From NCBI GenBank assembly GCA_001602645.1, contig LUYE01000008.1:1-49552 (forward strand): a DNA stretch of 49,552 nt, given 5' to 3'. Positions 460 through 17,419 of this stretch are shown here, in pieces. Under the pieces are notes generated by a model. The model was given only the letters and a program-made list of their open reading frames with translations, was not told the origin of the DNA and did no database searches. The first letter of the stretch is position 1; each line of letters begins with the position of its first letter. The DNA is from Methanosarcinales archaeon Methan_01 (GTDB lineage: Archaea > Halobacteriota > Methanosarcinia > Methanotrichales > Methanotrichaceae). The translations under genes and the position numbers were made by a program.

Positions 460-959
460 CCGGCCCCTCCCCCGGGGGCCGACCCCGGGCGGCTTCGGAG
501 GCGTGGAAGTCGGCGCAGACCTTCTTGCAGGTCTCCGACCAAGGCAGACCCTATACACTATCCGAATTTCACCAAGCCGTCCCGCCTCAAACCGTCCTCC
601 TACCTCCCGGAGACTGTTCAGTCCACACTTTTGCCTGGGACTCCCACGAACCAGCTTTTGGCGATGCTGTAGCGGCCTCCTATGATCGATGAGGCATTTA
701 ACGCTCTTCCCCGATCGACATCGTAGTGGGCTTGCTGGCCAAGATAAGCTATTGTTATCAAGAGACCATTATAGATTTTGTAGAATTCATCCGATATTCA
801 AGTAACAAATATTTTTTATACAAAATTATCTGATATAGTAATACTTATTCACTATCAAAGCAAAAGGATTATTAATAACTTGTTAGATCTTATGCAAGCA
901 AATCAAAGTTCCGTTGTTGAAATCTGTTGAGCCGAAAATTGCGCAGAGGTGGTGATTAG
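460..959 (+). other. intergenic region between glnK and the ABC system
   Basis: No convincing gene. A GC-rich inverted repeat (GGCCCC and GGGGCC arms, about 462-480) follows the glnK stop and could form a hairpin. From about 740 the sequence becomes very AT-rich. A TATA-like TTTTTTATAC at 812-821 is a candidate promoter for the binding-protein gene at 960, which would give a long leader of roughly 110 bases. A second AT-rich block at 861-890 includes AACTTGTTA (877-885), which recurs upstream of the binding-protein gene at 7450. Confidence 0.4.
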
Positions 960-2552
960 ATGAACCCGATGCTACGAACATCATCTTTCGTATTCATACT
1001 TGCCCTTTTGGCGTTGATGCCTTCATCTGACGCAGAAGAGACCTCATCTGAGGACGCCCTGGTTGTGGCAGTTAGCAGCTCCTTTTTCATGCAGGGGAAC
1101 GTGCTCGGTCAAGGTGGCGCCCCATCTGGCTCCTTCGTTTATGAGGGGCTGGTTACCAAGAACAGAGAGAGCGGATATGACGGCTGGCTGGCCGAGAGCT
1201 GGGAGAGCAACGAAGATGCGACAGCGTGGACGTTTCATCTGGTGGAGGCCCAGTGGCACGATGGCCAGCCTTTCACCTCGGAGGACGTGGAATTCACCTA
1301 CAACTACATCACGGATAACAAGATGTGGCTAGCCTCCGTCCTATCGATGGTGGACTATGTCGATTGTCCCGATGAAAGGACCGCGGTATTCCACATGAAG
1401 TCACCATCTCCTGCATTTCTTGATGACATCTCCCACTGTCCCGGGATCTGCATAATACCCAAGCACATCTGGGAGGATATCGACGACCCGGACCATTACG
1501 TGGACGAGGAGTTCGTCGGCACCGGTCCCTTCAAGTTCGTCTCCGTGGTCCCCGACCAGTACGTTAAGCTGGTGGCGAACGGTGACTATTATGGCGGACG
1601 GCCCGCGATCGGGGAGGTCATCCTCAAGATAATCCCCAACAAAGACGCTCAAATTTTGGCCATGAAGTCCGGAGAGGTCGATGTGGTGAGTGAGATCAGC
1701 CCGGCGGTGGCTCAAAGCATCGAAGGATCGAACGGCATAGAGACGTTCGTCGCCCCAGAGACCAGGGGCTACGAGCTGGGCTTCAACCTAAACAATTATC
1801 CTACTGATAGTCCGGAGTTCAGAAAGGCGATGGCCCATGCTATCGACCGGGAAAAGATCTGCAACATAGTATTTGGCGGATATGCGACGCCGACGGAGAC
1901 TACATTTCTGATGCCGAGCGTTGCTTACGATTTCGTCAACCCGGACGTTCCAGGAGACGATTACGAGTACGACCTAGAGAAGGCAGGCGAGATGCTGGAC
2001 GCGGCGGGCTTTACAGATCTGGACGGTGACGGGTGGAGGGAGGGCTCTGACGGAGAGGACGTGGTCATGATCATACCCATAACTGGAATGGGGGCAGACG
2101 ACTCCAAGATCGCAGAGGTTCTGAGAGAGGATTGGAAAGAACTCGGAATAAAGGTAGAGATGAAACAGGTCGAGTCCAGCCAGAAGCAGAGCGAGTACCA
2201 TAATAGCAACTTCTTCATCGTGGGGATGCCCTACCTGATGCACGATGACGCCGATGACCTGACCCACTTCGAGGTGGATTCTCACTTCGGCAATCCCAAC
2301 TGGTACGATTACGACGAACCTGATTACAACGCCTTGGCCGAGGAGCTGAGAAATACCGCAGACCAAGATGAGCGAAAGGAGATCGGCTACCAGATGCAGG
2401 AGATCCTGGCTGAGGACGTGCCCACAGTTCCCATATGCAGCACCGATGTGATCTTCGCCTACAGGGCCGACAGGTTCGCGGGATGGGAGGACGTGGCACC
2501 ATTGTACTGGAGTGTGGACACCAAGATGATCCTCAACGTCAGGCGCGCGTAA
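960..2552 (+). CDS. ABC transporter substrate-binding protein, peptide/nickel family
   Basis: This 530-residue exported protein has an N-terminal signal peptide (hydrophobic residues 9-21, likely cleavage near Ala25; no lipobox cysteine). The rest matches family 5 solute-binding proteins (DppA/OppA/NikA): the early FVYEGL and LAESWE segments, the TFHL-----WHDGQPFTSEDV block and the later GTGPFKF are typical. Length is close to NikA and DppA. It heads a run with a CooC-like nickel ATPase, a methyltransferase, two matching permeases and damaged ATPases. Substrate cannot be read from sequence. Nickel or a nickel chelate is favoured only because of the CooC-like neighbour; oligopeptides remain possible. 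Confidence 0.88.
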   Translation: MNPMLRTSSFVFILALLALMPSSDAEETSSEDALVVAVSSSFFMQGNVLGQGGAPSGSFVYEGLVTKNRESGYDGWLAESWESNEDATAWTFHLVEAQWHDGQPFTSEDVEFTYNYITDNKMWLASVLSMVDYVDCPDERTAVFHMKSPSPAFLDDISHCPGICIIPKHIWEDIDDPDHYVDEEFVGTGPFKFVSVVPDQYVKLVANGDYYGGRPAIGEVILKIIPNKDAQILAMKSGEVDVVSEISPAVAQSIEGSNGIETFVAPETRGYELGFNLNNYPTDSPEFRKAMAHAIDREKICNIVFGGYATPTETTFLMPSVAYDFVNPDVPGDDYEYDLEKAGEMLDAAGFTDLDGDGWREGSDGEDVVMIIPITGMGADDSKIAEVLREDWKELGIKVEMKQVESSQKQSEYHNSNFFIVGMPYLMHDDADDLTHFEVDSHFGNPNWYDYDEPDYNALAEELRNTADQDERKEIGYQMQEILAEDVPTVPICSTDVIFAYRADRFAGWEDVAPLYWSVDTKMILNVRRA

Positions 2553-2573
2553 ATCGATGTGGAGGGGGAAAAA

Positions 2574-3332
2574 ATGAAAGTTCTGGTATGTGGCAAGGGA
2601 GGGAGCGGCAAGAGCACCATCGCCGCCCTCCTCGCCAAGAGCTTTGCTCGACGAGGATACGGGGTTCTGGTGGTGGACAGCGACGAGTCGAACTACGGGC
2701 TTCACCGCCAGCTAGGCCTGGAGCTTCCGAGCTACTTTATGGGATACTTCGGCGGGAAGAAGGAGATGATATCGAGGATGATGAAGGCCTTTCCTAAAGG
2801 AGAAAAGATCGATCTCTTCGAGGAGAAATGGGGTCTGGCCGACATCCCAGGAGATTATCTCACCCAAAAAGACGGAATTAGGCTTTTGGCCATAGGCAAG
2901 ATCCAGGACTTTGGAGAGGGCTGCGCTTGTCCCATGGGGGCCCTATCCAAGATGTTCCTGGACAACCTCGATACGACCGGAAACGAGGCGGTGATCGTCG
3001 ATACAGAAGCAGGAATCGAGCACTTCGGCCGGGGCGTTGAACAGGGCTGCGACGTCATCCTTGCCGTTCTCGACCCGTCCTATGAGTCGCTCCAGCTCTC
3101 AAAGAAGATCGACGAGATATCTCAGAAGATCGGAAAGACCCTCTACTTCGTTCTTAACAGGGTGAACCCGGAGAGGAGGGCCGCCATGCTCGAGTTTCTC
3201 GGAGAAGAAAAGGTGGCGGCATCAATTTCGGAAGACGAGGAGATCTTCAGAGCCGGACTTGCCGGTGAGGAGATCGACGTCCAGCTGGAGGAGATGGAGC
3301 GTTTGGCCGATCTAGTGGTGAATAAGGCATGA
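2574..3332 (+). CDS. CooC-like nickel-insertion ATPase (MinD/ParA-type P-loop)
   Basis: A 252-residue P-loop ATPase. MKVLVCGKGGSGKST is a deviant Walker A with the extra signature lysine of the MinD/SIMIBI group. DSDESN (residues 35-40) follows the first strand. The segment EGCACPMG places Cys117-X-Cys119 where CooC proteins carry their metal-binding CXC pair at the dimer interface. CooC loads nickel into carbon monoxide dehydrogenase, so a nickel-maturation role is likely. The chosen ATG at 2574 has GGAGGGGG just upstream; an in-frame GTG at 2559 is less likely because it would include that site. Its stop overlaps the next start (ATGA). Confidence 0.85.
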   Translation: MKVLVCGKGGSGKSTIAALLAKSFARRGYGVLVVDSDESNYGLHRQLGLELPSYFMGYFGGKKEMISRMMKAFPKGEKIDLFEEKWGLADIPGDYLTQKDGIRLLAIGKIQDFGEGCACPMGALSKMFLDNLDTTGNEAVIVDTEAGIEHFGRGVEQGCDVILAVLDPSYESLQLSKKIDEISQKIGKTLYFVLNRVNPERRAAMLEFLGEEKVAASISEDEEIFRAGLAGEEIDVQLEEMERLADLVVNKA

Positions 3333-4381
3333 CGTCTGAAGAAATCGGCGAAAAGCGGCTGGCGGAGGTGAATCCGCCCCTGGAGGACCAGAGCCGACGC
3401 CTTTGGGACTTGGTCGCCGGCTTTGAGACGGGCCAAATCTTTCTCGCTGCCTTCGAACTCGGAGTCTTCAACCTGCTCAAAGAGCCTAAGACCTCCAAAA
3501 AGATCTCCGAAGAGCTTAATACTCATCCCACTGTGACCGAAAAGCTTCTGGACGTGCTCGTCTCCATCGGCACCCTCGACCGAATCGATGGCCTCTACTT
3601 GACCGCGCCCAATATGGCTCCTTTCCTGATAGAGGGCGAACCATACTTTGCCCGCTATCTGAAGTTCAGTTTGGAGTCCCGGGAAAAGTTGATCAATTTG
3701 AAGGCCGCCCTGAAGGAAGGTCCCGCCATCGAGGGAGATAAGCACGAGCATCACTATGATAGAGAGAGCATCGACTGGATCGCGAGAGGGACGATGCTCG
3801 GCAGACTCCAGGCCACTATTAAGCTCATAAGAGATCTTCCTGAGTTCAAGTCTGCGAGAAAGCTGATAGACCTGGGCGGCGGCCACGGCCTCTTCGGCAT
3901 CGGCTTCGCCCAGGAGAACCCCCAGATGGAGGTGGTGATCTTCGACCAGCCGGGGGTGGCCGAGATCGCCTCTGAATACATCGATCGGTACGGCGTCGGA
4001 GATAGGGTGAAGACGATGAGCGGCGATTATACGAAAGACGATATCGGGTCCGGCTACGACATCGCCTTTGAAGCCTGCTCTTTCGGGGGAAACGCCGAAC
4101 AGGCCAAGCTGTTTTACGAGAACGTCGCCCGATCCCTGAAAGACGGGGGCCTATTCATCAGCCAGACCTTTACCATCGACGACGACAGGAGGGCCCCTCT
4201 TCGAAACCTCGTCTGGGACTTAAAAGAGGAGATCTCGAACGACGGCCACATGCACCTCAAAACCAACTCCGAGATATTCCGGGCTCTGGGAGAGGCGGGC
4301 CTGGAGGGCGAGAAAGTCATCGACATGTCCTCGGATCTGAGCATGCCCATGAGGCTGGTGATTGCGAGAAAGAGGGGCTGA
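3329..4381 (+). CDS. SAM-dependent O-methyltransferase family 2
   Basis: A 350-residue protein built like hydroxyneurosporene/plant-type O-methyltransferases. An N-terminal winged-helix dimerisation region (about 25-95) is followed by a Rossmann methyltransferase domain with the SAM-binding glycine motif IDLGGGHGLFG (about 180-190) and the acidic segment VVIFDQPGV. Its ATG overlaps the TGA of the CooC-like gene, so the two are translationally coupled. It lies between the binding protein and the permeases of one transport system, which suggests it acts on the transported compound or a metal-binding ligand. That role is inference; the substrate is unknown. Confidence 0.85.
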   Translation: MTSEEIGEKRLAEVNPPLEDQSRRLWDLVAGFETGQIFLAAFELGVFNLLKEPKTSKKISEELNTHPTVTEKLLDVLVSIGTLDRIDGLYLTAPNMAPFLIEGEPYFARYLKFSLESREKLINLKAALKEGPAIEGDKHEHHYDRESIDWIARGTMLGRLQATIKLIRDLPEFKSARKLIDLGGGHGLFGIGFAQENPQMEVVIFDQPGVAEIASEYIDRYGVGDRVKTMSGDYTKDDIGSGYDIAFEACSFGGNAEQAKLFYENVARSLKDGGLFISQTFTIDDDRRAPLRNLVWDLKEEISNDGHMHLKTNSEIFRALGEAGLEGEKVIDMSSDLSMPMRLVIARKRG

Positions 4382-4426
4382 ATCGCCAGATGTGAGCTTC
4401 ATCGATGGTAGCAGGAGAGATGAGAC

Positions 4427-5404
4427 ATGAAGGCCGAGTATCTGATGAGAAGGGTCTTGTACAGCCTTTTGGCCTTTATGATCAGCGTAAGCCTGACCTT
4501 TGTCCTCCTCCACCTGATGCCCGGAGACTACCTCCACTCCATCCTCCCGTATCTGGCGGAGAAAAACCCTGATGCAGCCCGGATGTTTCGGGAGCAGTTC
4601 GGCCTGAACAGGTCCATATCCGAGCAGTACCTTCTCTACATGGTCAACATCATCCAGGGGAACTGGGGCTACTCTTTCCTCTACGGGCTGCCGGTTCTTG
4701 CAGTAATCGAGGAGAAGCTCCGCTGGACACTGGTCATCCTCTTCCCCTCCACCGTCCTCTCCATCTTCATCGGGATGGCCGTTGGAGCCTATTCTGGGTG
4801 GATAAACGGATCGAAGACGGACTTGTCGGTGCTGAACTTCATGATCTTCGTGGGGGCTGTGCCCTCTTACTGGTGGGCCATGCTCCTCATCCTCATATTC
4901 GGGTTCCACATGAACCTCTTCCCCCTGGGCGGATACGCCAGCATCGACGCTCTCGATGTGGGGGTTCGTATCTCCGACGTCCTCCGCCACGCAGCGCTGC
5001 CCATCACCGCCCTGACGATCTCATCGGTACCCGGAACGTACTATCTGATGAGAAACTCGACCCTTCAGACCACAGGAGAGGAGTACGTCCTCACCGCCAG
5101 GTCCAAAGGCTTGAGGGAGATGGAGATCCTCCGCCATCACGCCCTGAAGAACGCCATGCTGCCCATGGTGACGGTGATCGCTCTGGAGCTGGCTCAGATG
5201 ATCATGGGGAGTGTTTTCGTAGAGACGATATTCTCTTGGCCAGGGCTTGGGCTTCTGACCTTCGAAGCTCTCCGGGTAAGAGATCTTCCGCTTCTGCAGG
5301 GGATATTTCTCATGGACACTCTAATGGTCATCCTTGCCAACATCGTTGCCGACCTCTCTTACCCCTTCATAGACCCCCGGGTGAAGGTGGGCGAAAGTGT
5401 CTAG
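4427..5404 (+). CDS. ABC transporter permease, DppB/NikB type
   Basis: A 325-residue membrane protein starting MKAEYLMRRVLYSLLAF, the typical opening of DppB/NikB permeases. The FGLNRSISEQYL and GNWGYSF blocks match the external loop of the family. The EAA loop (ARSKGLREMEILRHHALKNA, before the last segments) contacts the ATPase. About six membrane segments are evident. It pairs with the next permease, which overlaps it by 8 bases, and with the binding protein at 960. The matching ATPases downstream are damaged, so whether this transporter is energised by its own cluster is doubtful. Confidence 0.93.
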   Translation: MKAEYLMRRVLYSLLAFMISVSLTFVLLHLMPGDYLHSILPYLAEKNPDAARMFREQFGLNRSISEQYLLYMVNIIQGNWGYSFLYGLPVLAVIEEKLRWTLVILFPSTVLSIFIGMAVGAYSGWINGSKTDLSVLNFMIFVGAVPSYWWAMLLILIFGFHMNLFPLGGYASIDALDVGVRISDVLRHAALPITALTISSVPGTYYLMRNSTLQTTGEEYVLTARSKGLREMEILRHHALKNAMLPMVTVIALELAQMIMGSVFVETIFSWPGLGLLTFEALRVRDLPLLQGIFLMDTLMVILANIVADLSYPFIDPRVKVGESV

Positions 5405-6221
5405 AAAGTCGGCCTTCAAAGTCGGCCTTCTCATTCTGGGGGCGTACATCCTGGCCGCCCTCTCATCTTCGGTGATAACGCCCTATAGCCCCACAGCGCT
5501 CGTGGGCCGCCCTCTGGATGGCCCGAGCGATACCCATCTTCTGGGGACCAACGACCTGGGACAGGACATATTCAGCAGGCTGTTATACGGAACCCGCGCT
5601 ACACTGATCATTGGCCTTCTGGGCGCTCTCCTATCCGTCTCGGTCAGCACCCTGGTGGGCACCGTCTCAGCCTACTATGGGGGCGGGGTCGACGAGGTCA
5701 TCACCAGATCCGTCGACGTTCTGATGACCTTGCCGAGCTTCCCCCTCCTCCTGGTGCTGACGATCTTCTTTGCGCCCAGCATATTCGTCATCAGCGGACT
5801 TATGGGGGTATTGGGGGGGATGCAGGGGATCAGGATCATCAGATCCCAGGTGCTATCTCTCGTCGAGGCCAACTTCGTATACGGCGCCAAGGCCATCGGA
5901 GCGAGCGACCTTCGCATCATGACCAGGCACATCCTTCCCAACGTCCTTCCGCTGGCGACGGTGAAGTTCGTATTTGCGGCACAGCGCTACATGCTCATGG
6001 GCGTAGGTCTCGGGTTTTTGGGCCTCGGAGACCCCTCAGTCGTCGATTGGGGGCAGATGATAAGCCGGGCCTACTACAACGGCGGCTTTGCCCTGGGCCT
6101 CTGGTGGTGGCTCATCCCACCAGGCATCGCAGTGACCCTGCTATCCGTCGCTCTTGCCCTTCTGGGATACGGTCTGGAAGAAGAGATCTATCCTCGGCTG
6201 AAGAGGTCTGTTGCGATATGA
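5397..6221 (+). CDS. ABC transporter permease, DppC/NikC type
   Basis: A 274-residue DppC/NikC-type permease with a GTG start that overlaps the end of the preceding permease. LLGTNDLGQDIFSRLLYGTR is the diagnostic N-terminal block. The EAA loop KAIGASDLRIMTRHILPNVL and the late GLGFLGLGDPSVVDWGQMI block are also present. Five to six membrane segments are visible. The last codons form ATGA with the next reading frame, the usual permease-to-ATPase coupling, but that next gene is only a remnant. Confidence 0.94.
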   Translation: MSRKSAFKVGLLILGAYILAALSSSVITPYSPTALVGRPLDGPSDTHLLGTNDLGQDIFSRLLYGTRATLIIGLLGALLSVSVSTLVGTVSAYYGGGVDEVITRSVDVLMTLPSFPLLLVLTIFFAPSIFVISGLMGVLGGMQGIRIIRSQVLSLVEANFVYGAKAIGASDLRIMTRHILPNVLPLATVKFVFAAQRYMLMGVGLGFLGLGDPSVVDWGQMISRAYYNGGFALGLWWWLIPPGIAVTLLSVALALLGYGLEEEIYPRLKRSVAI

Positions 6222-6538
6222 GAATCCTGAAGCTGGCCTGCGATCCTCGTATAATCATCGCCGACGAGCCCACAAAGGGGCTGGATGCGAACGTCAAGGC
6301 TCAGGTCGTCGAGTTCATCCAAGAGGTGACTACTGATAAGTCCCTCCTCTTCATAACCCACGATCTGAGCGCGGCCGCTCAGATATGCGACCGGATCGCC
6401 GTTATGTACTGTGGCGAGATCGTAGAATGGGCCCGGACGGAGGAGATCTTCGCAAATCCGCTACACCCTAATAGAAGCCGTAGATGGCGTCTCTTTCAAG
6501 ATCGAGCGCGGCGAAACTCTCGGCCTCGTGGGCTGTAG
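6218..6538 (+). pseudogene. DppD/OppD-type ABC ATPase remnant with N-terminal half deleted
   Basis: This 106-codon frame starts at an ATG overlapping the permease stop. It begins MRIL and jumps at once to LACDPRIIIADEPT, which in DppD/NikD lies around residue 160. Walker A, the Q-loop and the ABC signature are missing. What remains is Walker B, the D-loop (TKGLDA), the switch histidine (FITHDLS) and the [10 protein letters not shown] tail. After that the frame runs into unrelated codons because the next ATPase gene begins in another frame. The intact start and coupling point to an in-frame internal deletion of roughly 150 codons. It cannot bind or hydrolyse ATP alone. An assembly deletion is possible. 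Confidence 0.75.
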
Positions 6539-7286
6539 TGGGTGCGGTAAGACGACTCTCGGCAGGCTGCTTTTGAGGCTTATCGAGCCCACATCCGGGA
6601 GCATAATCTTCGACGGCGCAGATATACCCCGCCTAAAGAGAAGGGAGATGAGACGGATGAGGTCCAGGATGCAGATGATATTTCAGGACCCTGATACCTC
6701 TCTCAATCCCAGAATGACCACCAAAGAAAGCATTTCAGAGCCTCTGATGCTTAGGGGAGGCCTCACCGGGGGCGAGATCGAGGAGGTGTCAATGCTGATG
6801 GATAGGGTCGGACTGAGTCCCGAGCACCTCGGACGTCGCCCCCATCAGCTCAGCGGCGGCCAAAACCAGAGGGCAGTTCTTGCCCGTATTCTGGCCTCAA
6901 ACCCCGAGTTCATAGTGGCGGACGAGCTCCTCTCTGCCCTGGACATCTCCGTCCAGGCCCAGATATTCAGCCAGCTGAATGAGATAAAAAAAGATCTGAA
7001 GATAACTTTTTTGTTCATCTCTCACGATTTGAATCTCGTCAGGCTGATGAGCGACAGGGTCGCTGTGATGGAGCGAGGAAAGATCGTGGAGGCGGGACGG
7101 ACCGAGGAGATCTTTCGCCATCCTCTCCATCCCCGCACCAGAGAGCTGGTATCCTCTGCAGCCATGGACGGTCGGGGCTCTACCCTTATGCTAAAAGAAA
7201 GCCTCATCTCGACCGCGACGAGAAGGCCTGGGGCCATAATGGGCGGAGTTTGCGACGATAACCCGATGGATTCGAAGAGTTCATGA
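6528..7286 (+). CDS. DppF/NikE-type ABC ATPase, 5'-truncated
   Basis: Reads GCSGCGKTT (Walker A) from a GTG at 6528, then the Q-loop (MIFQDP), signature LSGGQNQ, Walker B FIVADE, D-loop and HDLN switch: a nearly complete nucleotide-binding domain. The frame stays open upstream to 6426, and codons 6462-6527 encode the conserved [17 protein letters not shown] strand. That segment has no start codon, because its true 5' end has been lost at the junction with the preceding ATPase remnant. Starting at GTG would remove the first beta strand and the A-loop region. Walker B has ADELLSALD where ADEP is usual. It may be non-functional or made only by read-through. Confidence 0.65.
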
Positions 7287-7449: not shown

Positions 7450-8637
7450 ATGAATAAATCTGCTAGAAAACCGTTTTCTGTGCTCCTGTTGCTGACGTTT
7501 GCGGCCCTGCTGGCAGAGCCGATGGCAGCAGAGGAGTTCAAAACCGTCACGGACATGCGCGGCGTTGACGTGTCAATCCCCGAGGATCCTCAGAGGGTCG
7601 TCGCCATCAGCCGCTCGTTCATCGACACCACGATGTGCATCTTCGGAGCGGAGGATAAGCTCGTGGGCGGCAGCGTGTGGACTCGAGATGACGGATACGG
7701 TGATTACACCAGCGACGGCAGGACATACATTTCAATCTCCAAAGTGCTAAATCCGAATTATCGAAATCTCACCAACACCGGTGGATTCGGTGGTCCTTAT
7801 GGAACGGTGAACGTGGAGACGATAGCGTCTTTGGAGCCCGATATTCTGATTTTGAGGGATTTTGGGAACGCTGATGAAGACGTTCAGAAGTTTCTCGATT
7901 CCATGGAGCAGCTGGAGATACCCGTGGTCGTCTTGAAGTACCCCGACTGTTACGATGATATCAATGTCAGCACCATTTACGAGGAGGTCAGGCTCCTCGG
8001 AGAGGTCTTCAATAGGCAAGATAAGGCAGAGGAGATTGTCGATCATATGGACGCACAGGTGCAGTTGATCCGAGAAAGGACAAAAGATGTCGATGAAGCG
8101 GATAAACCCTCAGTCCTCTACTTCGGCGCTTCGAGCAAGGCCGCTGACAGTGGTGGCGTCGGATATGTCTTCGGCACCGATACCATCGAATCGGTCTTTC
8201 TGGAAGATATCGTAAACGCCAAAAACGCTTATGGTGACCTTGGGCGAGGAGTACTGAATGGTAGAATTGGGACCGACATCATATCGACTGAGCAGCTATT
8301 GGCCCTGGACCCGGATATCATCATCCTTCCTACTTACGCTGGTTTCTATTCGCCAAGCGAAATATACGAATCGGAGGGTTTCGAGAAAGTTCAGGATTTG
8401 AGGGCCATAAAAGAGAGGAGAGTCTACGCTCTTACCGCCACCCCCTGCAAATCGGAACGGCTGGAGTTTCCGATAAACCTGATGATAGAGGCGAAGGCGA
8501 TCTACCCGGAAAGGTTTGAGGACATCGACCTCGACGAGTGGATAAGAGACTACTTCATGGGACTGTACAACGTCGATGAGGAGAAAGCAGACGAGCTGAT
8601 GGATTCGCTCCTTCTCCGGTATCTGGAGATAGCATGA
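7450..8637 (+). CDS. iron/cobalamin-type ABC substrate-binding protein (paralog 1)
   Basis: A 395-residue exported protein: signal peptide (residues 1-27, cleavage near AMAAEEF), then the FepB/BtuF opening KTVTDMRGVDVSIPEDPQRV. The DILILRD and DIIILPT strand segments flank the helical linker typical of this class. Such proteins bind Fe(III)-siderophores, cobalamin or haem. At about 395 residues it is longer than bacterial BtuF (about 270). It carries an FGTDTIES-FLED motif shared with the paralog at 15381. It has its own AT-rich promoter region and a terminator, so it may be expressed alone. No lipobox or C-terminal anchor is seen. Confidence 0.88.
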   Translation: MNKSARKPFSVLLLLTFAALLAEPMAAEEFKTVTDMRGVDVSIPEDPQRVVAISRSFIDTTMCIFGAEDKLVGGSVWTRDDGYGDYTSDGRTYISISKVLNPNYRNLTNTGGFGGPYGTVNVETIASLEPDILILRDFGNADEDVQKFLDSMEQLEIPVVVLKYPDCYDDINVSTIYEEVRLLGEVFNRQDKAEEIVDHMDAQVQLIRERTKDVDEADKPSVLYFGASSKAADSGGVGYVFGTDTIESVFLEDIVNAKNAYGDLGRGVLNGRIGTDIISTEQLLALDPDIIILPTYAGFYSPSEIYESEGFEKVQDLRAIKERRVYALTATPCKSERLEFPINLMIEAKAIYPERFEDIDLDEWIRDYFMGLYNVDEEKADELMDSLLLRYLEIA

Positions 8638-8838: not shown

Positions 8839-10062
8839 ATGTGTGAATGGCAAAGATCAGATAAGCGAATGTTACCCAGACTAGGAAGCTGGGGTGCAAA
8901 TATGCAAAGGGCTTGGGCTGGCATTAGATCTCGATCATCTCTTGCTACGGTGGCATGTCTCCTGTTGCTATCCTTTGCATTAATGCCTGCGGATGCGGAA
9001 TATTGTGAGATAGTAGATATGATGGACAGAACCGTAAACGTCGACAGACCTATTGACAAAGTAGTTACCGCGGGTTATGGATTCATCCCTTGTGCCATGG
9101 CAGCACTTGGGGTGGGGGATAGGATTGTCGGTACGGGTGGGGCCATTTCGGCATTAACAAATGAAACGATAGCTACATACCTCGTTCCACAGATCAAGGA
9201 ACTCCCGGATCTAGGTAGGGGTTACAATCTCAACCTCGAATCTGCAGCTGCACTAGATCCTGATGTCATAATATTGGAGAGAGATGGAGCAGGACAGGGA
9301 ACTGGCTTGACAGAATACGACAAACTCATCGAGAAGCTAGAGCTTTTTGAAGATAGTTTTCCAACAGTTGTTTTAAATAATCCCGCCTGCTACGCACCGC
9401 CAGATGTGAGTTCCATCTACCAAGAGATCGGTATTTTGGGGGAACTATTCGATAAGCAGGATAGGGCAACGGAGATTGTGGATTATCTTGAGGCAGAAGT
9501 GCAACTCATAAGAGACAGGACGGCAGATATAGACGACGAAGAGAAACCTAGGGTGTTGTATATGGGTCTTATGGGCGGAGTTGATTCTGGAAAAGGAGCC
9601 GTGGCGCTCGCCCTTCCAGATTACGATTGTGGAACATTATATCCTGACATCACCAAAATAAAAAATGCCTATACAGACGAATCTAGAGGCTACCTTTCTA
9701 CAGAGCAGATATTGGCAATAGATCCAGACTTGATAATTCTAGTTCGAAGTCCCGGTGGATACGAAGTACGACAGCTGTATGAAGAAGAATATTATACTGG
9801 TCTTAGCGAACTGAGGGCTATAAAAGAAAGACGAGTATATTCTACAGGCCAATTTCAGCTACACAGAAATTTAGCAGGTTTGGATTATCCCATCGAGATG
9901 CTGATCGAGGCCAAAGCTGCATATCCTGCCCGATTCGAGGATGTCAAGGTTTGCGAATCGCTGACGGAGCACTATAGAGCGCTTTACGGCCTGAACGATG
10001 AAGAAATCGATGAACTCAAGTCCATCATGGGGCTGAGCTGGATGGACGATGCAGGATTTTGA
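8839..10062 (+). CDS. iron/cobalamin-type ABC substrate-binding protein (paralog 2)
   Basis: A 407-residue member of the same FepB/BtuF-like family: EIVDMMDRTVNVDRPIDKV after the signal peptide, then DPDVIILE and DPDLIILV strands. The signal peptide core (LATVACLLLLSFALMPADA) lies 30 residues in. An internal ATG at 8902 would give a normal signal peptide, while the TATA box position favours 8839; the start is unresolved. It is the most divergent of the five paralogs, lacks the conserved PWTPCN stretch and is visibly richer in A/T codons than its neighbours, suggesting a separate origin. A hairpin terminator overlaps its stop codon. Confidence 0.86.
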   Translation: MCEWQRSDKRMLPRLGSWGANMQRAWAGIRSRSSLATVACLLLLSFALMPADAEYCEIVDMMDRTVNVDRPIDKVVTAGYGFIPCAMAALGVGDRIVGTGGAISALTNETIATYLVPQIKELPDLGRGYNLNLESAAALDPDVIILERDGAGQGTGLTEYDKLIEKLELFEDSFPTVVLNNPACYAPPDVSSIYQEIGILGELFDKQDRATEIVDYLEAEVQLIRDRTADIDDEEKPRVLYMGLMGGVDSGKGAVALALPDYDCGTLYPDITKIKNAYTDESRGYLSTEQILAIDPDLIILVRSPGGYEVRQLYEEEYYTGLSELRAIKERRVYSTGQFQLHRNLAGLDYPIEMLIEAKAAYPARFEDVKVCESLTEHYRALYGLNDEEIDELKSIMGLSWMDDAGF

Positions 10063-10157: not shown

Positions 10158-11240
10158 ATGGCCGAAGAGCTGAAACGCCTCAGCATCCTGGAGCGGCTGG
10201 GCTATGAGCGAATTGAGGGCTTTTCTGAAGAGCGAAAGGTGGGCATTCTGATATCGCTACTCGCGTTGATGATCGTCGCTGCTGCCATAGCCATATCCCT
10301 CGGGGTTTATGAGATATCGGTCATCGACGTCTACAATATCACGCTGGCACATCTGTCGCCTCTCGGAGATACATCCGCCGTCAATAGGCTCTATGATACC
10401 ATCGTCTGGGAGCTGAGGGTCCCGAGGATCCTACTGGCGATCACCGTCGGGGTAGCCCTCGCCACCTCCGGCGCCGTCTTCCAGGGCTGCTTCAGAAATC
10501 CTCTGGTAGAGCCTTACATCCTCGGGGTATCATCCGGGGCGGCCTTTGGCGCGTCCCTTGGCATCGTATATCCTCAGTTCTTCCTTTCGATCCAGGTCTC
10601 AGCCTTCGTATTCGGATCGGTGGCGGTGGCCCTCGCCTACATTTTGGCGCGGACCAGGGACGAAACGCCCATCGTCACCCTGATATTGGCTGGGGTGATC
10701 ATCGGCTCGGTCTTCTCGGCCCTCGTATCCATAATGAAGTACATATCCAATGACAGCGCCCTTCGAGAGATCGTCTTCTGGCTGATGGGAGGATTTTACT
10801 ACGCCTCATGGAAGGACGTGGCTCTCGTATCGCCGGTAGTCATCGCCTCGTTTCTGGTCCTCTGGTTTTTTGGCTGGAAGCTTAACATCCTCTCGATGGG
10901 GGACGAAGAGGCGAGGACCCTCGGGGTCAGCCCCGAGAAGTACAAGTTTCTCTTGATCTCGATCGCGACCTTAATCACGTCCCTTGCGGTCTCCACGGTG
11001 GGGATCATCGCCTGGGTGGGGCTGATGATGCCCCATGCCGCCCGGCTTCTTCTGGGTCCGGATCACCGGTTCGTCGTTCCGGCGGCGGCGATGCTAGGCG
11101 GGACGTACCTCATAGTCTGTGATACCCTCGCCAGGACCCTGACCTCGGCGGAAATCCCCGTGGGGATCATCACCTCGATCTTGGGGGCTCCATACCTCTT
11201 CTACCTCCTGAGGACGAGAGGGCGCGCCATATTCGGGTGA
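10158..11240 (+). CDS. iron/cobalamin ABC transporter permease (FecCD/BtuC family)
   Basis: A 360-residue FecCD/BtuC-type permease with about ten membrane segments. LRVPRILLAITVGVALATSG, GCFRNPLVEPYILGVSSGA and GIIAWVGLMMPHAARLLLG are the hallmark blocks of the family; the last contains the cytoplasmic gate next to the ATPase contact. The ATG follows GGTGGATATCTC. It is the only permease of this type in the window and presumably serves all five paralogous binding proteins as a homodimer. The ATPase gene follows immediately. Confidence 0.95.
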   Translation: MAEELKRLSILERLGYERIEGFSEERKVGILISLLALMIVAAAIAISLGVYEISVIDVYNITLAHLSPLGDTSAVNRLYDTIVWELRVPRILLAITVGVALATSGAVFQGCFRNPLVEPYILGVSSGAAFGASLGIVYPQFFLSIQVSAFVFGSVAVALAYILARTRDETPIVTLILAGVIIGSVFSALVSIMKYISNDSALREIVFWLMGGFYYASWKDVALVSPVVIASFLVLWFFGWKLNILSMGDEEARTLGVSPEKYKFLLISIATLITSLAVSTVGIIAWVGLMMPHAARLLLGPDHRFVVPAAAMLGGTYLIVCDTLARTLTSAEIPVGIITSILGAPYLFYLLRTRGRAIFG

Positions 11241-11245
11241 TTTTC

Positions 11246-12079
11246 ATGCTTCGAGTGAGAGACCTGCATTTCAGCTACGGAAAAAAGCCCGTCTTCGAGG
11301 GCGTATCCTTCGAAGTCGAGGAGGGGGAGCTCTGCGGCCTCTTCGGCCCGAACGGCTGCGGTAAGACGACCCTCTTCAAGTGCTGCCTTAAATTTCTGAA
11401 GTTTCACCGGGGCTCGGTGGTCATGAACGGCATCGACATCACCGACCACCGGATCGAGAAGATGGCGAAGCTTGTGGCCTACGTCCCCCAGGAGCACAAG
11501 CCCCCCTTTCCCTACCTCGTCAAGGAGGTGGTCCTGATGGGAAGAACGCCCCATCTTCGGGGCGTCTTCGGGATCGGCAGAAAGGACAAGGAGCGGGCCC
11601 TGAACGCCCTCGAAGTGCTCGATATCGGCCATCTCGCAGACCAGCCCTACAACCAGCTCTCCGGAGGTCAGCGCCAGATGGTCCTGATGGCGAGGGCGAT
11701 CGCCCAGGATACTAAGATCATGTTTTTGGATGAGCCGACCTCGGCCCTCGACTTCAGCAACCAGATCCGGATCTGGGAGATAATGCGCCGGGTTGCCGAG
11801 GAGGGGGTCACCATCCTCGCCTGCAGCCACGATCCAAACCACGTATCCTGGTTCTGCAACAAAGTGGTGGTGATGAACAGAAACGGGATCGTCGCTGAAG
11901 GCGCGCCTCATCACGTGATCACAGAGCAGGTCCTCGACGAGATATACCAGGGGGTCTGCACCGTCAGGAGCCTGGGCGGCACAAGGATGGTGATGCCGAA
12001 GGTGGTGGCGGATAAGGAATCGGACGAGATATCCATCGAGAGCCGAGTGGGGATGCGACGCGCTGCCGCCGTGAGGTGA
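11246..12079 (+). CDS. iron/cobalamin ABC transporter ATPase (FecE/BtuD type)
   Basis: A complete nucleotide-binding subunit of about 277 residues: Walker A GPNGCGKTT, signature LSGGQRQMVLMARAI, Walker B IMFLDEPTSALD and the switch histidine in CSHDPNH. Start at ATG 11246, because GGTGA (11236-11240) lies at the right distance; a GTG at 11237 overlapping the permease stop would use up that site. It partners the FecCD permease. The methyltransferase gene begins 7 bases after its stop, so they are in one transcript. Confidence 0.94.
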   Translation: MLRVRDLHFSYGKKPVFEGVSFEVEEGELCGLFGPNGCGKTTLFKCCLKFLKFHRGSVVMNGIDITDHRIEKMAKLVAYVPQEHKPPFPYLVKEVVLMGRTPHLRGVFGIGRKDKERALNALEVLDIGHLADQPYNQLSGGQRQMVLMARAIAQDTKIMFLDEPTSALDFSNQIRIWEIMRRVAEEGVTILACSHDPNHVSWFCNKVVVMNRNGIVAEGAPHHVITEQVLDEIYQGVCTVRSLGGTRMVMPKVVADKESDEISIESRVGMRRAAAVR

Positions 12080-12086
12080 ATGAGGT

Positions 12087-12944
12087 ATGATGTCGACTGA
12101 TCAGATCGACTGGGCGGAGGTCTGGGCGGACCGGATGAAACGACACTATGAGATGAACGGCGGCACGGACTGCGCAGATTGTTGGGATGACGAGGAGGAG
12201 GCTCGAAATTACTGGAGGATGGTACAACATGACTGCGGGGGATATGTAGATCACCTGCTCGACAGAATCAGGGTTGAGCCCACCTTTCGAGTGCTGGACA
12301 TCGGGGCAGGGCCCGGAACCTTGGCGATCCCCTTCTCCAAGATGGCCGCCCACGTCACAGCCGTGGAGCCCAGCGTCTCCATGGCCACGGTTCTCCGGGA
12401 GAACCTCGATGAGCGCGGGATCGAGAACGTGGACTGCATCCAAAAGAGATGGGAGGAAGTGGATGTTGAGAGAGATCTAAAACCTCCTTACGATCTGGTC
12501 GTGGCATCCTTCTCCCTGGGGATGACCGACATCAAGGCGGCCGTCCAGAAGATGATGACGGTTTCGTCCGGGCGCGTGTACCTGGCCTGGTTTGCGGGTG
12601 ATACCTCCTGGGACGTTCAAGCCCGGGAAGTATCCGCCCTTCTCTTCGGCGATGTTGCGTATCATCCGATGCCGAAATCGGACGTGCTATTCAACTTCCT
12701 CTACCAGATGGGCGTCTACCCCAACGTTTGGGTATTTCCTCTCAGGATGGACCATCGTTTTCCCTCCTTCGACGACGCTTTGAACTATTTTGGCGGCCAG
12801 TACCGGGTCTCAACCGACGATCAGAGGGCGAAGCTGAGCGGCTACCTGTCTCAGGTCGTCGAAAAGGATGGAGAATCCTGGGCGATGACGTACGATTTCT
12901 TAAACATGATGATTTGGTGGGATAACAACCACCAGGAAACGTAA
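12087..12944 (+). CDS. class I SAM-dependent methyltransferase
   Basis: A 285-residue Rossmann methyltransferase. The SAM motif VLDIGAGPGTLAIPF (from about residue 69) and the acidic VTAVEPS strand end are clear. Before it is a WAEVWADRMKRHYEMNGG region resembling small-molecule methyltransferases annotated near metal transporters in methanogens. It lies 7 bases after the ATPase and 13 bases before the tandem binding proteins, so it belongs to the uptake operon. It is a different subfamily from the O-methyltransferase at 3329. Function may be modification of an imported chelate or corrinoid; this is inference and the substrate is unknown. Confidence 0.82.
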   Translation: MMSTDQIDWAEVWADRMKRHYEMNGGTDCADCWDDEEEARNYWRMVQHDCGGYVDHLLDRIRVEPTFRVLDIGAGPGTLAIPFSKMAAHVTAVEPSVSMATVLRENLDERGIENVDCIQKRWEEVDVERDLKPPYDLVVASFSLGMTDIKAAVQKMMTVSSGRVYLAWFAGDTSWDVQAREVSALLFGDVAYHPMPKSDVLFNFLYQMGVYPNVWVFPLRMDHRFPSFDDALNYFGGQYRVSTDDQRAKLSGYLSQVVEKDGESWAMTYDFLNMMIWWDNNHQET

Positions 12945-12957
12945 GGAGGATAAGAAC

Positions 12958-14154
12958 GTGAATTTTGTGAGATGTTGTATGCTTGCGGTCGCATGCCTCT
13001 GCCTCATTTTTGGGGCGGGATCGGCTGATGAGTACAGAACCGTAACAGATATGCAAGGTAGAGATGTCCAAATACCGACCGATATCGAAAGAGTCGTTAC
13101 TATTGATGACGGCCTTATTGAAGGCGTAATGACGATTTTAGGGGAATCCGACAAGATTGTTGGTCTTGGCTCTTCATGCATCCAAAAATCATACGAATAT
13201 ACCTTTCCCAGTGTTTCATCGGATAATTATACCTATTCCGATGGCATGAATCCCGTGGGATACCTCAATCCTGGCTTTGCTGATTTGCCCCTGGTTCAAG
13301 AGTCTTCAACTGGAATCAACTATGAAACCTTGGTATCCCTTGAACCGGATGTTGTAATCATCAGGAGTGGGTCGTGTGCTGCGTCATGGGGGTTATCAGA
13401 GGAGAAACTGAGCAAGAACATCGATACCATTGAAACGTTGGGCATTCCAACGGTAATCGTCAATGCACCCCCTTGCTACGATGATCCGGATCTCAGCACG
13501 ATCTCAGAGGAGATCATGGTCATTGGGCAGGTATTTGGCAAGGAAGACGAGGCAGAAGAGCTGGTGACGTACATTGAAAGCTGCGTTACGATGATAATGG
13601 AACGGACAGCAGATATTCCGGATGATGAGAAGCCAACTGTGTTGGCATTGGGGTTATCTCCTTCGTCAAGAGGTGCCGGCGGAGCTGGCAACGTCCGGGG
13701 AGCCATCGTTGCTTATTACATCGAGGAAATTGCCAATGCAGCTAACGCGTATACTGTTACTAGGTACACTTCTGACACAGGTGTTATAAGCGCAGAGCAC
13801 GTTCTTGCATTAGACCCGGATATCATCATTCTGCCAACCTCATCAGGTTATCATCCACCAAGCGAATTATACAGTGCTCCCTACTATGAAAACCTCTGGG
13901 AACTCAATGCGGTGAAGAATAGGAAGGTCTATGCGCTTCCATGGACTCCCTGCAATTGCGATGCATCACGCTTGGAGTACCCCATAGATCTCATGATCAT
14001 CGCCAAGGCCGCCTATCCTGAGCAGTTTTCTGACATCAAGGTCCACGAATGGGTGCTGGAGTTCTACCAGAACGTCTATGGAGTGGATGAGGAGACGGCC
14101 ATCGGCCTGCGCTCGGCGCAGTGGCTTGACTGGATGGTGGAAGAAGATTTCTAG
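12958..14154 (+). CDS. iron/cobalamin-type ABC substrate-binding protein (paralog 3)
   Basis: A 398-residue binding protein with a GTG start, supported by AAGGAGGATAAGAAC immediately upstream. Signal peptide residues 1-21, then YRTVTDMQGRDVQIPTDIERV. Conserved features shared with paralogs 4 and 5 include GMNPV-Y-NP, a PW-PCNC segment with two cysteines near residue 335, and the C-terminal VHEWVLEFYQNVYGVDEET. Codon use is more A/T-rich in its first two thirds than at its C-terminus, which is nearly identical to that of paralog 4 and looks homogenised by recombination. First of three tandem copies. Confidence 0.88.
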   Translation: MNFVRCCMLAVACLCLIFGAGSADEYRTVTDMQGRDVQIPTDIERVVTIDDGLIEGVMTILGESDKIVGLGSSCIQKSYEYTFPSVSSDNYTYSDGMNPVGYLNPGFADLPLVQESSTGINYETLVSLEPDVVIIRSGSCAASWGLSEEKLSKNIDTIETLGIPTVIVNAPPCYDDPDLSTISEEIMVIGQVFGKEDEAEELVTYIESCVTMIMERTADIPDDEKPTVLALGLSPSSRGAGGAGNVRGAIVAYYIEEIANAANAYTVTRYTSDTGVISAEHVLALDPDIIILPTSSGYHPPSELYSAPYYENLWELNAVKNRKVYALPWTPCNCDASRLEYPIDLMIIAKAAYPEQFSDIKVHEWVLEFYQNVYGVDEETAIGLRSAQWLDWMVEEDF

Positions 14155-14300
14155 ATAGGGGGACAAGACGATGGATTATTCGATATTGCGACGGTGGGTT
14201 TTCGCCGTTGCAGGTCTTTGTTTAGTCCTAAGTTTGGGATGTGCCGAGGATTACAGAACTGTCGTGGACAGCAGAGGGGTCGCCGTACAGGTACCGGTGG
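14041..14300 (+). repeat. direct repeat, copy 1 (spans the 3/4 gene junction)
   Basis: This stretch includes the end of paralog 3, a 16-base spacer and the first ~43 codons of paralog 4. It matches 15251-15510 at high identity with a constant offset of 1210 bases. A repeat that bridges gene boundaries is the expected footprint of tandem duplication by unequal crossing-over or later gene conversion. Confidence 0.75.
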
Positions 14301-15364
14301 AGATCGAGCGCGTGGTCACCATCAGCGACGGTTTTGTGGAAGAGGTGATGACCTACCTGGGGGTGGCAGGCAAGCTGGTCGGAGTGGGGTCTAGGACCTT
14401 TGAGGAGATCGACAGCTATACCTACGAAACTGTGAGCGGTGGGACGTTCTCTCATCAGGACGGCATGAACACCGTATCCTATATCAACCCCTGGATAATG
14501 GAGCTGCCAATCGTCGCCGAGTACGGAGCAGGGGCGAACTTCGAGGCGATCTCCAGCCTCGATCCCGACCTGATCATAATCAGGCTGGGGTCGTGCACTT
14601 TTTGGACTAACGATGAAAACGTTCAAAAGTCGATCGAGATAGTCGAATCTTTGGGGATACCGGTAGTGGTTCTCTTGGGCACGGACTTCTACGACCATCC
14701 TGATATATCGACGATGTGGGACGAGATTGAGGTGATAGGAAGGGTATTTGACAAGGAAGAAGAAGCAGAAGACCTTGTAGAATATCTTCAAGAGACGGTG
14801 GCGCTGGTATCCAAGCGGACAAGAGATGTGCCGGAAGAGGAGAAGCCCACGGTGCTGTACTTCGGTTTGTCCCCGTTGGCAAGGGAGGAAGGTGGCGCAG
14901 GTAATACCGTTTCGCGGAAGTCGTTTGAATCTTGGGCGATTGAGGAGCTGGTACATGCGCAAAACGCCTTCCGGGATGATTCCGGATACTGGCATAAGAT
15001 AAGCACAGAACATGTCTTGGCCATGAACCCCGACGTGATAGTGCTTCCAACGGATTGGGGCTATCATCCCGTAAGGGAAATATTAGAGGCACCTTACTAT
15101 CAGAACCTCCAGGATCTGGATGCCATCAAGAACGGGCGAGTGGTTTCGCTCCCCTGGACGCCTTACGACTGCGCAAAGCGTCTGGGGTATCCCATCGAGG
15201 TTGTGATTATAGCAAAGGCGGCGTACCCTGAGAGGTTTGAAGACATCAAAGTACACGAATGGGTGCTGGAGTTCTATCAGAACGTCTATGGCGTGGACGA
15301 AGAGACTGCCATCGGCCTGCGGTCGGCACAGTGGCTGGACTGGACGGTGGAAGAAGACTTCTAG
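14171..15364 (+). CDS. iron/cobalamin-type ABC substrate-binding protein (paralog 4)
   Basis: A 397-residue copy. It starts MDYSILRRWVFAVAGLC, with a signal peptide ending near LGCAED; the cysteine there is only a weak lipobox because the -3 residue is Ser. Mature part opens YRTVVDSRGVAVQVPVEIERV. Its N-terminus is almost identical to paralog 5 and its C-terminal ~33 residues to paralog 3, while the central ligand-binding lobes have diverged. The spacer to its upstream neighbour is 16 bases, the same as the spacer to paralog 5. Substrate divergence among copies is likely but unproven. Confidence 0.88.
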   Translation: MDYSILRRWVFAVAGLCLVLSLGCAEDYRTVVDSRGVAVQVPVEIERVVTISDGFVEEVMTYLGVAGKLVGVGSRTFEEIDSYTYETVSGGTFSHQDGMNTVSYINPWIMELPIVAEYGAGANFEAISSLDPDLIIIRLGSCTFWTNDENVQKSIEIVESLGIPVVVLLGTDFYDHPDISTMWDEIEVIGRVFDKEEEAEDLVEYLQETVALVSKRTRDVPEEEKPTVLYFGLSPLAREEGGAGNTVSRKSFESWAIEELVHAQNAFRDDSGYWHKISTEHVLAMNPDVIVLPTDWGYHPVREILEAPYYQNLQDLDAIKNGRVVSLPWTPYDCAKRLGYPIEVVIIAKAAYPERFEDIKVHEWVLEFYQNVYGVDEETAIGLRSAQWLDWTVEEDF

Positions 15365-15510
15365 ATATGGAGATGAGACGATGGATTACTCGATATTGAG
15401 ACGGTGGACCTTCGCCGTCGCATGTCTTTATTTAGTCTTAAATTTGGGATGTGCCGACGAGCACAGAACTGTCGTGGACAGCAGAGGGGTCGCCGTCCAA
15501 GTGCCCACGG
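15251..15510 (+). repeat. direct repeat, copy 2 (spans the 4/5 gene junction)
   Basis: Second copy of the 14041-14300 repeat. It covers the end of paralog 4, its stop, the identical-length 16-base spacer and the start of paralog 5. Differences are mostly at third codon positions. Confidence 0.75.
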
Positions 15511-16577
15511 ATATCGAGCGCGTGGTGACGATGAGTGACGGCATGATCGAAGGGGTCATGACATCGCTGGGCGTCCAGGATAAGATCGTGGGGTTGGGGT
15601 CCAGCTCCCTTCAGAGGACCTGGAGCTACTCCTACGAATCGGTGAGCGGTGAGAACTACTCTTACGATGAGGGGATGAACCCGGTGACCTACATCAACCC
15701 CTCGTTCATGGACCTGCCTCTCGCCGCTGAGGACGCCGTGAACTACGAGGCCTTGGCAAGCCTGGACCCCGACGTGGTGATCCTCCGGGCTGGCTCCTGC
15801 AACTTCTGGGTCACCGACGTGAATGATGAAAACCTTCAGAAGACCATCAGCACCATCGAATCTTTGGATATACCTTTGGTGGTTCTCTACGGCCCCGACT
15901 GTTATCCGGAGCCTGACATGTCCACCATCTCTGACGAGATCGTCATCATCGGCCAGCTCTTCGACCGGGAAGAGGATGCGAGAGTCCTCGCCGATTACAT
16001 CGAAAGCCAGGTGGCCCTCGTGAAGGAGAGGACCGTGGACGTCCCCGATTCTGAGAGGCCTGACGTTCTGATGCTGGGGCTCTCTCCATCCGCCAGAAGC
16101 GAAGGCGGGGCGGGCGTGGTCTTCGGCACCGACACCATCGAGTCCTTCTTCATCGAGGATCTGGCAGGTGCAAAAAACGCGTTCCAGGACACGGGCTACT
16201 TCAAGACCGTGAGCGCCGAGCATCTGCTGGCCCTGAACCCCGACGTCATCGTCCTCTGCACCGCGGCAGGTTATCACCCGCCAAGAGAGCTCTACGAGGC
16301 GTCCTACTACCAGAACCTCCAGGAGATGGACGCCATCAAGAACCACAGGGTAACAGCTCTGCCGTGGACCCCCTGGAACTGCGCAAAGCGTCTTGAGTAT
16401 CCGATCGACGTCATGATGATCGCAAAGGCCGCGTACCCAGAGACGTTCGAGGACATCGACCTGGGTGAGTGGCTCCTGGACTTCTACATGAACGTTTACA
16501 ACGTTGACCGGGATACGGCGATCGGCATTCGTTCCGCCCAGTGGATGGACTGGACCGCGGAGGAGAGCCCCGTTTGA
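15381..16577 (+). CDS. iron/cobalamin-type ABC substrate-binding protein (paralog 5)
   Basis: A 398-residue copy starting at ATG 15381 (MDYSILRRWTFAVACL). The frame is open further upstream, but that part is an out-of-frame overlap with paralog 4. GAGATGAGACG precedes the ATG. It keeps the family segments GMNPVTYINP, DPDVVILR, FGTDTIES-FIEDLAGAKNAF (shared with paralog 1) and PWTPWNC. Its codons are the most GC-rich of the five, matching the host genome. It closes the tandem array; a hairpin follows one base after the stop. Confidence 0.9.
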   Translation: MDYSILRRWTFAVACLYLVLNLGCADEHRTVVDSRGVAVQVPTDIERVVTMSDGMIEGVMTSLGVQDKIVGLGSSSLQRTWSYSYESVSGENYSYDEGMNPVTYINPSFMDLPLAAEDAVNYEALASLDPDVVILRAGSCNFWVTDVNDENLQKTISTIESLDIPLVVLYGPDCYPEPDMSTISDEIVIIGQLFDREEDARVLADYIESQVALVKERTVDVPDSERPDVLMLGLSPSARSEGGAGVVFGTDTIESFFIEDLAGAKNAFQDTGYFKTVSAEHLLALNPDVIVLCTAAGYHPPRELYEASYYQNLQEMDAIKNHRVTALPWTPWNCAKRLEYPIDVMMIAKAAYPETFEDIDLGEWLLDFYMNVYNVDRDTAIGIRSAQWMDWTAEESPV

Positions 16578-17220: not shown

Positions 17221-17419
17221 CCCTTCGGGCTGATCTACGGCTTTTAGACCTCCACCTTCGCCACCATATTCGCCCCGATCTCTCTCGCCATCTCTGTCAC
17301 CATCTCTTTCACCATTTTGCTGCCTTCTCTGCCGGCATCTTCGGATCTCTCAAAAGGTGGCCTCGACGCCCCCGCTCCCTTCATAATTGTTATGAACCTT
17401 TCTCAAACCTTCTCAAATA

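Follow-up and report, generated by a model that had tools for sequence, protein, structure and literature searches.

What does an ATPase resembling the CooC protein of CO dehydrogenase do, together with a SAM-dependent methyltransferase, between the binding protein and the permeases of an importer? The locus that raises this question belongs to a Methanotrichaceae MAG with a genome of 2.6 Mb and lies in the window (the whole stretch of 49,552 nucleotides analysed), with which contig C40 begins. Among named relatives, a Methanothrix harundinacea MAG is the closest (CooC 85% identical; its locus L007 and genome G003 are one record, and L007 and L040 are duplicates of each other). Gene calls and domain matches agree on the order that the first-pass annotation had read at 960-7286: on a single strand, the genes for a family-5 solute-binding protein (SBP5), the CooC-like ATPase, the methyltransferase (OMT) and the permeases NikB and NikC follow one another and are succeeded by two ABC ATPase genes (Table 1).

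Table 1. Features of the transport operon and of the adjoining importer cluster (positions in the window)
Feature	Position	Strand	Evidence or remark
Upstream region of operon	700..959	+	TATA-like TTTTATACAAA near 830-842; ~85% conserved with L007 throughout
SBP5, family-5 solute-binding protein, N-terminal signal peptide	960..2552	+	SBP_bac_5 PF00496, E 4e-86
Transport-type CooC ATPase	2574..3332 (ORF from 2559)	+	GKGGSGK deviant Walker A, Cys117-x-Cys119, DTEAGIEHFGRG
Class I SAM methyltransferase (OMT), PF00891 fold	3329..4381	+	PF00891/PF08100
NikB/OppB-type permease	4427..5404	+	PF00528 E 6e-39, PF19300
NikC/OppC-type permease	5397..6221	+	PF00528 E 2e-19
nikD remnant: start and Walker B half retained, Walker A half missing, frame lost at 3' end	6218..6538	+	tblastn of intact L007 NikD
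nikE minus first ~20 codons	6471..7286	+	tblastn of L007 NikE residues 21-300, 83% identical
Peripla_BP_2 binding protein a	7450..8637	+	PF01497 E 5e-24
Peripla_BP_2 binding protein b	8839..10062	+	PF01497
FecCD/BtuC-type permease	10158..11240	+	PF01032 E 9e-93
FecE/BtuD-type ATPase, intact Walker A	11237..12079	+	ABC ATPase directly downstream of FecCD gene
Second SAM methyltransferase MT25	12087..12944	+	PF13649
Three tandem Peripla_BP_2 binding proteins	12958..16577	+	PF01497 in each

The CooC gene most likely starts at ATG 2574, which is preceded by GGAGGGGG; because of this start, the numbering of its CxC pair as Cys117/Cys119 stands, and the pair aligns with that of CooC1. The proposed coupling to the methyltransferase is borne out by a 4-bp overlap, in which the stop codon of CooC and the start codon of the methyltransferase share ATGA; gene overlaps are also present at NikB/NikC and at NikC/NikD. 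Beyond NikE the cluster continues with five Peripla_BP_2 genes, a FecCD/FecE importer and MT25 up to 16577, a DUF998 gene comes next and the cluster ends at 17233. The FecCD/FecE, MT25 and Peripla_BP_2 modules also flank the operon in three other genomes (G018, G036 and G032), in differing order, and in the same three the orthologue of Peripla_BP_2 protein a sits directly upstream of SBP5. Two adjoining Peripla_BP_2 genes (14171-16577) have near-identical starts (MDYSILRRW.FAVA) and are probably a recent tandem duplication. With respect to regulation, none of 4227 Rfam families matched in the window, L007, L041, L043 or L051, and no riboswitch was thus found there; no 7-bp perfect inverted repeat was present in 700..959, the two close genomes being too alike for footprinting. 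NikR is encoded in the genome (contig C30), with no operator site assigned to the operon, and a bacterial promoter/terminator scan, the model of which is ill-suited to archaea, gave no more matches than in shuffled sequences.

The arrangement is not confined to this genome. Of the 238 genomes examined for the class, only six carry an orthologue of the methyltransferase (at least 61% identity), five of them Methanotrichaceae (G000, G003, G018, G032, G036) and one of another family (G059), and the gene order recurs across these six and both families. In all six carriers the methyltransferase comes straight after CooC and ahead of NikB and NikC. SBP5 is the gene immediately before CooC in five of them; in G032 a contig end lies between the two genes. 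Since the order SBP5-CooC-OMT-NikB-NikC is kept at 55-85% protein identity across the six genomes, it is not a product of chance, and the view that importer, CooC-type metal ATPase and SAM methyltransferase form one unit is upheld. The first-pass annotation had named homologous clusters lacking CooC or the methyltransferase as evidence against its reading, and such clusters do exist in part: in three further genomes methyltransferase homologues of 46-48% identity end SBP5-SBP5-NikBCDE operons without CooC (L146, L148, L149), and in G202 a 48% SBP5 homologue belongs to an SBP5-NikBCDE operon devoid of both (L160). A further methyltransferase homologue lies beside a FecCD/FecE importer. In consequence, neither protein is needed for import, methylation recurs beside such importers with CooC in a subset only, and the CooC-OMT insertion is a lineage-specific addition rather than an obligate part. 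On contig C88 of G036, which holds an operon copy, a CbiM-PDGLE-CbiQ set is present about 28 kb away (L162, 1-1630), a suggestive observation only; FecCD, FmdE-like, TrmO, CobN and several SBP5 genes are located on the same contig.

Both importer ATPase genes are truncated in this assembly. Compared with the intact L007 genes, nikD lacks ~474 bp that encode its Walker A, the Q-loop and the signature, and a further 258 bp are missing from the end of nikD into nikE, whose first ~20 codons are gone; only residues 160-250 of NikD are left, 82% identical to L007 (tblastn), and the first usable nikE start codon is GTG 6528 inside Walker A, no good one being present before that motif. Both deletions are clean in this assembly and may be either real or an assembly fault. 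Within the operon, nikD and nikE are intact in L007/G003, G032 and G059; in G018 and G036 no nikDE follows nikC, and orthologues of 58% identity reside on separate contigs, next to further SBP5 or to MT25 genes. The nearest other NikD of the present genome, sought as a possible replacement, is only 44% identical (contig C8). The importer may thus borrow its ATPases in some lineages.

The CooC-like protein shares with CooC1 of CO dehydrogenase (PDB 3KJE) the P-loop fold, the deviant Walker A motif GKGGxGK[ST], the AGIEH motif and the CxC pair, which aligns with Cys112/Cys114 of CooC1 (E 4e-20). In a tree of 60 CooC-type proteins, however, it did not group with the CooC genes of CODH/ACS operons; it belongs to a clade of 39 members with 100/100 support, set apart by a long branch from canonical CooC (the exact root being unsure owing to the long branches). 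The protein also differs from CooC1 in a GEGCACPMG signature and in its link to importers and methyltransferases, with no cdh genes nearby. GKGG[SC]GK and CxC are retained in all full-length members. The neighborhoods differ likewise: importer genes lie within 5 kb at ~34 of 40 clade loci (35 of 41 entries before removal of the duplicate L007/L040) versus 2 of the 20 canonical paralogues (p 2e-8 by Fisher's test); a transport or methyltransferase gene is the immediate neighbor in the same direction at 25 of 40 versus 0 of 20 (p 8e-7); and cdhD/cdhE are nearby at 0 of ~40 versus 7 of 20 (p 2e-4). These p-values overstate certainty, since the loci are drawn from related genomes and thus lack independence. 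Immediate partners of the clade CooC are OMT (6 loci), MT25 (6, where its homologues lie directly upstream of CooC), a TrmO-type methyltransferase (6) and a flavin reductase (8); the same CooC type is also joined to Peripla_BP_2/FecCD/FecE importers, which carry metal chelates. The CooC-like protein accordingly represents a separate branch linked to importers and not a CODH chaperone.

Three further observations concern the distribution of such proteins. In other Methanotrichaceae, an FmdE-like secreted protein, SBP5 and CooC, followed by a flavin reductase or a TrmO-type methyltransferase, form a recurrent succession (L060, L064, L066-L068, L072, L075 and others). A Clostridia CooC of the same clade (47-48% identity) adjoins a beta-eliminating lyase and has no neighboring importer (L008, L009). 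In G035, SBP5-type importer genes enclose a third CooC type, which is preceded by a DUF4198 gene (L151, 11355-14677); importer-linked CooC may therefore have more than one origin.

These results bear directly on the proposal of the first-pass annotation that CooC equips CODH/ACS with imported nickel or feeds F430 synthesis. The CooC fold, the CxC pair and the high nickel demand of methanogens speak for it; yet the genome encodes a separate Cdh-operon CooC on contig C44, which adjoins CdhD/CdhE and falls into the canonical set, and the importer-linked clade never adjoins cdhD/cdhE. A role in CODH/ACS is rejected on the grounds of neighborhood, tree and the presence of the Cdh-operon CooC, and the proposal as a whole is highly improbable. 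Nickel itself would be the likeliest metal of the operon, as judged from CooC homology. CooC1 was reported to bind one Ni per dimer via Cys112/Cys114 and also to bind Zn at the CxC (PMC6006190), and the motif therefore does not fix the metal; nickel-associated neighbors, DUF4198 and CobN, occur at only 1 of 41 clade entries each.

The binding protein lends nickel no such support. SBP5 reaches 173 bits against the NikA equivalog TIGR02294 (cut-off 393) and 90 bits against the DppA equivalog (cut-off 1005), and NikA His416 and Arg137 are absent in an alignment with E. coli NikA, in which the loop around 416 is aligned uncertainly and a conserved His428 lies near. Classical NikA and DppA are hence rejected on the curated cut-offs, NikA also on its ligand residues, and of the nickel claim the plausibility derived from CooC persists while the NikA-type assignment falls. 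Histidine and cysteine residues conserved in five SBP5 orthologues, SHCPG (His159-Cys160) and MHDD (His428), are candidate ligands only. The AF2 model (pLDDT 78) has NikZ and NikA as top Foldseek matches, but peptide and sugar binders score alike; fold searches place both SBP5 and the methyltransferase in known folds and do not settle the substrate. An ordinary importer of peptides or amino acid derivatives, with CooC and the methyltransferase as a separate pathway merely on a shared transcript, would agree with these fold matches, with general family-5 proteins as the best PDB sequence matches and with the presence of the five-gene unit in only 6 of 238 genomes. It is nevertheless distinctly unlikely, as the CooC clade is repeatedly joined to two unrelated importer families, far above the canonical control (34/40 versus 2/20).

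The methyltransferase contains the PF00891 domain and a dimerisation domain, and its fold was confirmed by Foldseek matches to RedM, DsyB and PigF. PF00891 O-methyltransferases possess a catalytic His in an LHDW-type motif; the aligned stretch, EACSFGGN, lacks His in all orthologues of the operon protein. Its best PDB sequence match is the S-methyltransferase DsyB, at ~21-23% identity and likewise without His in this stretch, whereas the best NCBIfam match is a weak one to BchU. The name O-methyltransferase is therefore not safe. The likeness to DsyB would fit a metabolism of methyl-sulfur or other methylated compounds, with S-methylation of an imported thiol and with a metal enzyme of the pathway as the client of CooC; against the low identity, further top matches that methylate O, N or C atoms and an operon without sulfur genes, this reading is very unlikely.

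Taken as an importer of a metal complex that is processed within the cell, a proposal we regard as evenly poised between right and wrong, the operon would function as follows; gene content, order and coupling, the protein families, the conserved CxC pair and the importer linkage of the CooC clade are established by the analysis, and we infer the identity of the metal, the ligand, the direction of metal flow and the methyl acceptor. SBP5 would capture the complex outside the cell, and NikB/NikC with NikD/NikE-type ATPases would carry it inward. A dimer of the CooC-type ATPase, with one Cys-x-Cys pair per subunit, would take the metal and free it on ATP turnover, while the methyltransferase, its translation coupled to that of CooC, would methylate the organic ligand and thereby either block re-binding of the metal or finish or recycle the ligand. 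It is a tentative possibility, and rather a doubtful one, that this extends to a metallophore (nickelophore) pathway of methanogens that couples the ATP-driven removal of metal by CooC to chelator methylation by OMT, MT25 and TrmO-type enzymes beside one CooC clade serving Nik-type and Fec-type importers across Methanosarcinia.

The cargo might instead be a tetrapyrrole (corrinoid, haem or F430-like) that is taken up and remodelled, a CobN-type chelatase and CooC exchanging the metal and the methyltransferases modifying the ring. Consistent with this are the FecCD/FecE/Peripla_BP_2 importer in the same cluster, a CobN directly downstream in G036 (L043), four CobN genes of the genome that adjoin Peripla_BP_2 and in some cases also nitrogenase-like genes, the weak BchU match, and a CobN-type protein of Methanothermobacter that is produced in large amounts only when Ni is limiting (PMC12350162). 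As just one of the ~40 CooC loci has CobN nearby and the window has none, and as peptides or small chelates are the commoner cargo of family-5 binding proteins, a tetrapyrrole cargo is unlikely. Elsewhere in the genome (L106, L107, L108, L113; contigs C23, C34, C78), long Peripla_BP_2 runs lie beside CobN-type chelatases and nitrogenase-like NifH/NifD; many of these binding proteins share an N-terminal YTLxIFGNANMDDxIDE, dockerin-like in look, and an OMT paralogue is located beside the runs on C78.

Among known systems, the operon is close to NikABCDE of E. coli (and NikZ), with which it shares the SBP5 fold and, apart from the insertion, the succession of a binding protein gene, a pair of permease genes and a pair of ATPase genes; it differs in the inserted CooC and methyltransferase, in an SBP5 only 25% identical to NikA and in the truncated nikD/nikE, an intact ATPase set being found in NikABCDE but not in this assembly. 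The staphylopine-metal importer CntABCDF is likewise of Opp type, with a metallophore-metal cargo and a CntA to which SBP5 is matched in fold; SBP5 nonetheless scores 138 bits against a CntA cut-off of 800, and to our knowledge no CooC or methyltransferase partner of Cnt systems has been described. A converse case is given by the Clade B NiFe-CODH operons, which carry ABC transporter genes and a CODH-like protein without maturases (PMC13056359): both link a protein of the CODH world with ABC importers and not with CO metabolism, in the present operon a CooC-like ATPase that has no CODH alongside. We class the operon as a variant of the Nik/Opp-type importers with a transport-dedicated CooC; no description of the SBP5-CooC-methyltransferase-importer arrangement was found in open-access full text, most subscription papers lying outside the scope of this search.

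The acquisition of nickel and other metals by methanogens in sulfidic settings is poorly known, and the clade described here hints at an undescribed way of metal-complex uptake and release. As a caution, not every CooC homologue of a methanogen is a CODH maturase. If the proposal is true, an importer-dedicated CooC clade would extend the role of CooC ATPases beyond CO dehydrogenase and would point to undescribed archaeal metal ligands.
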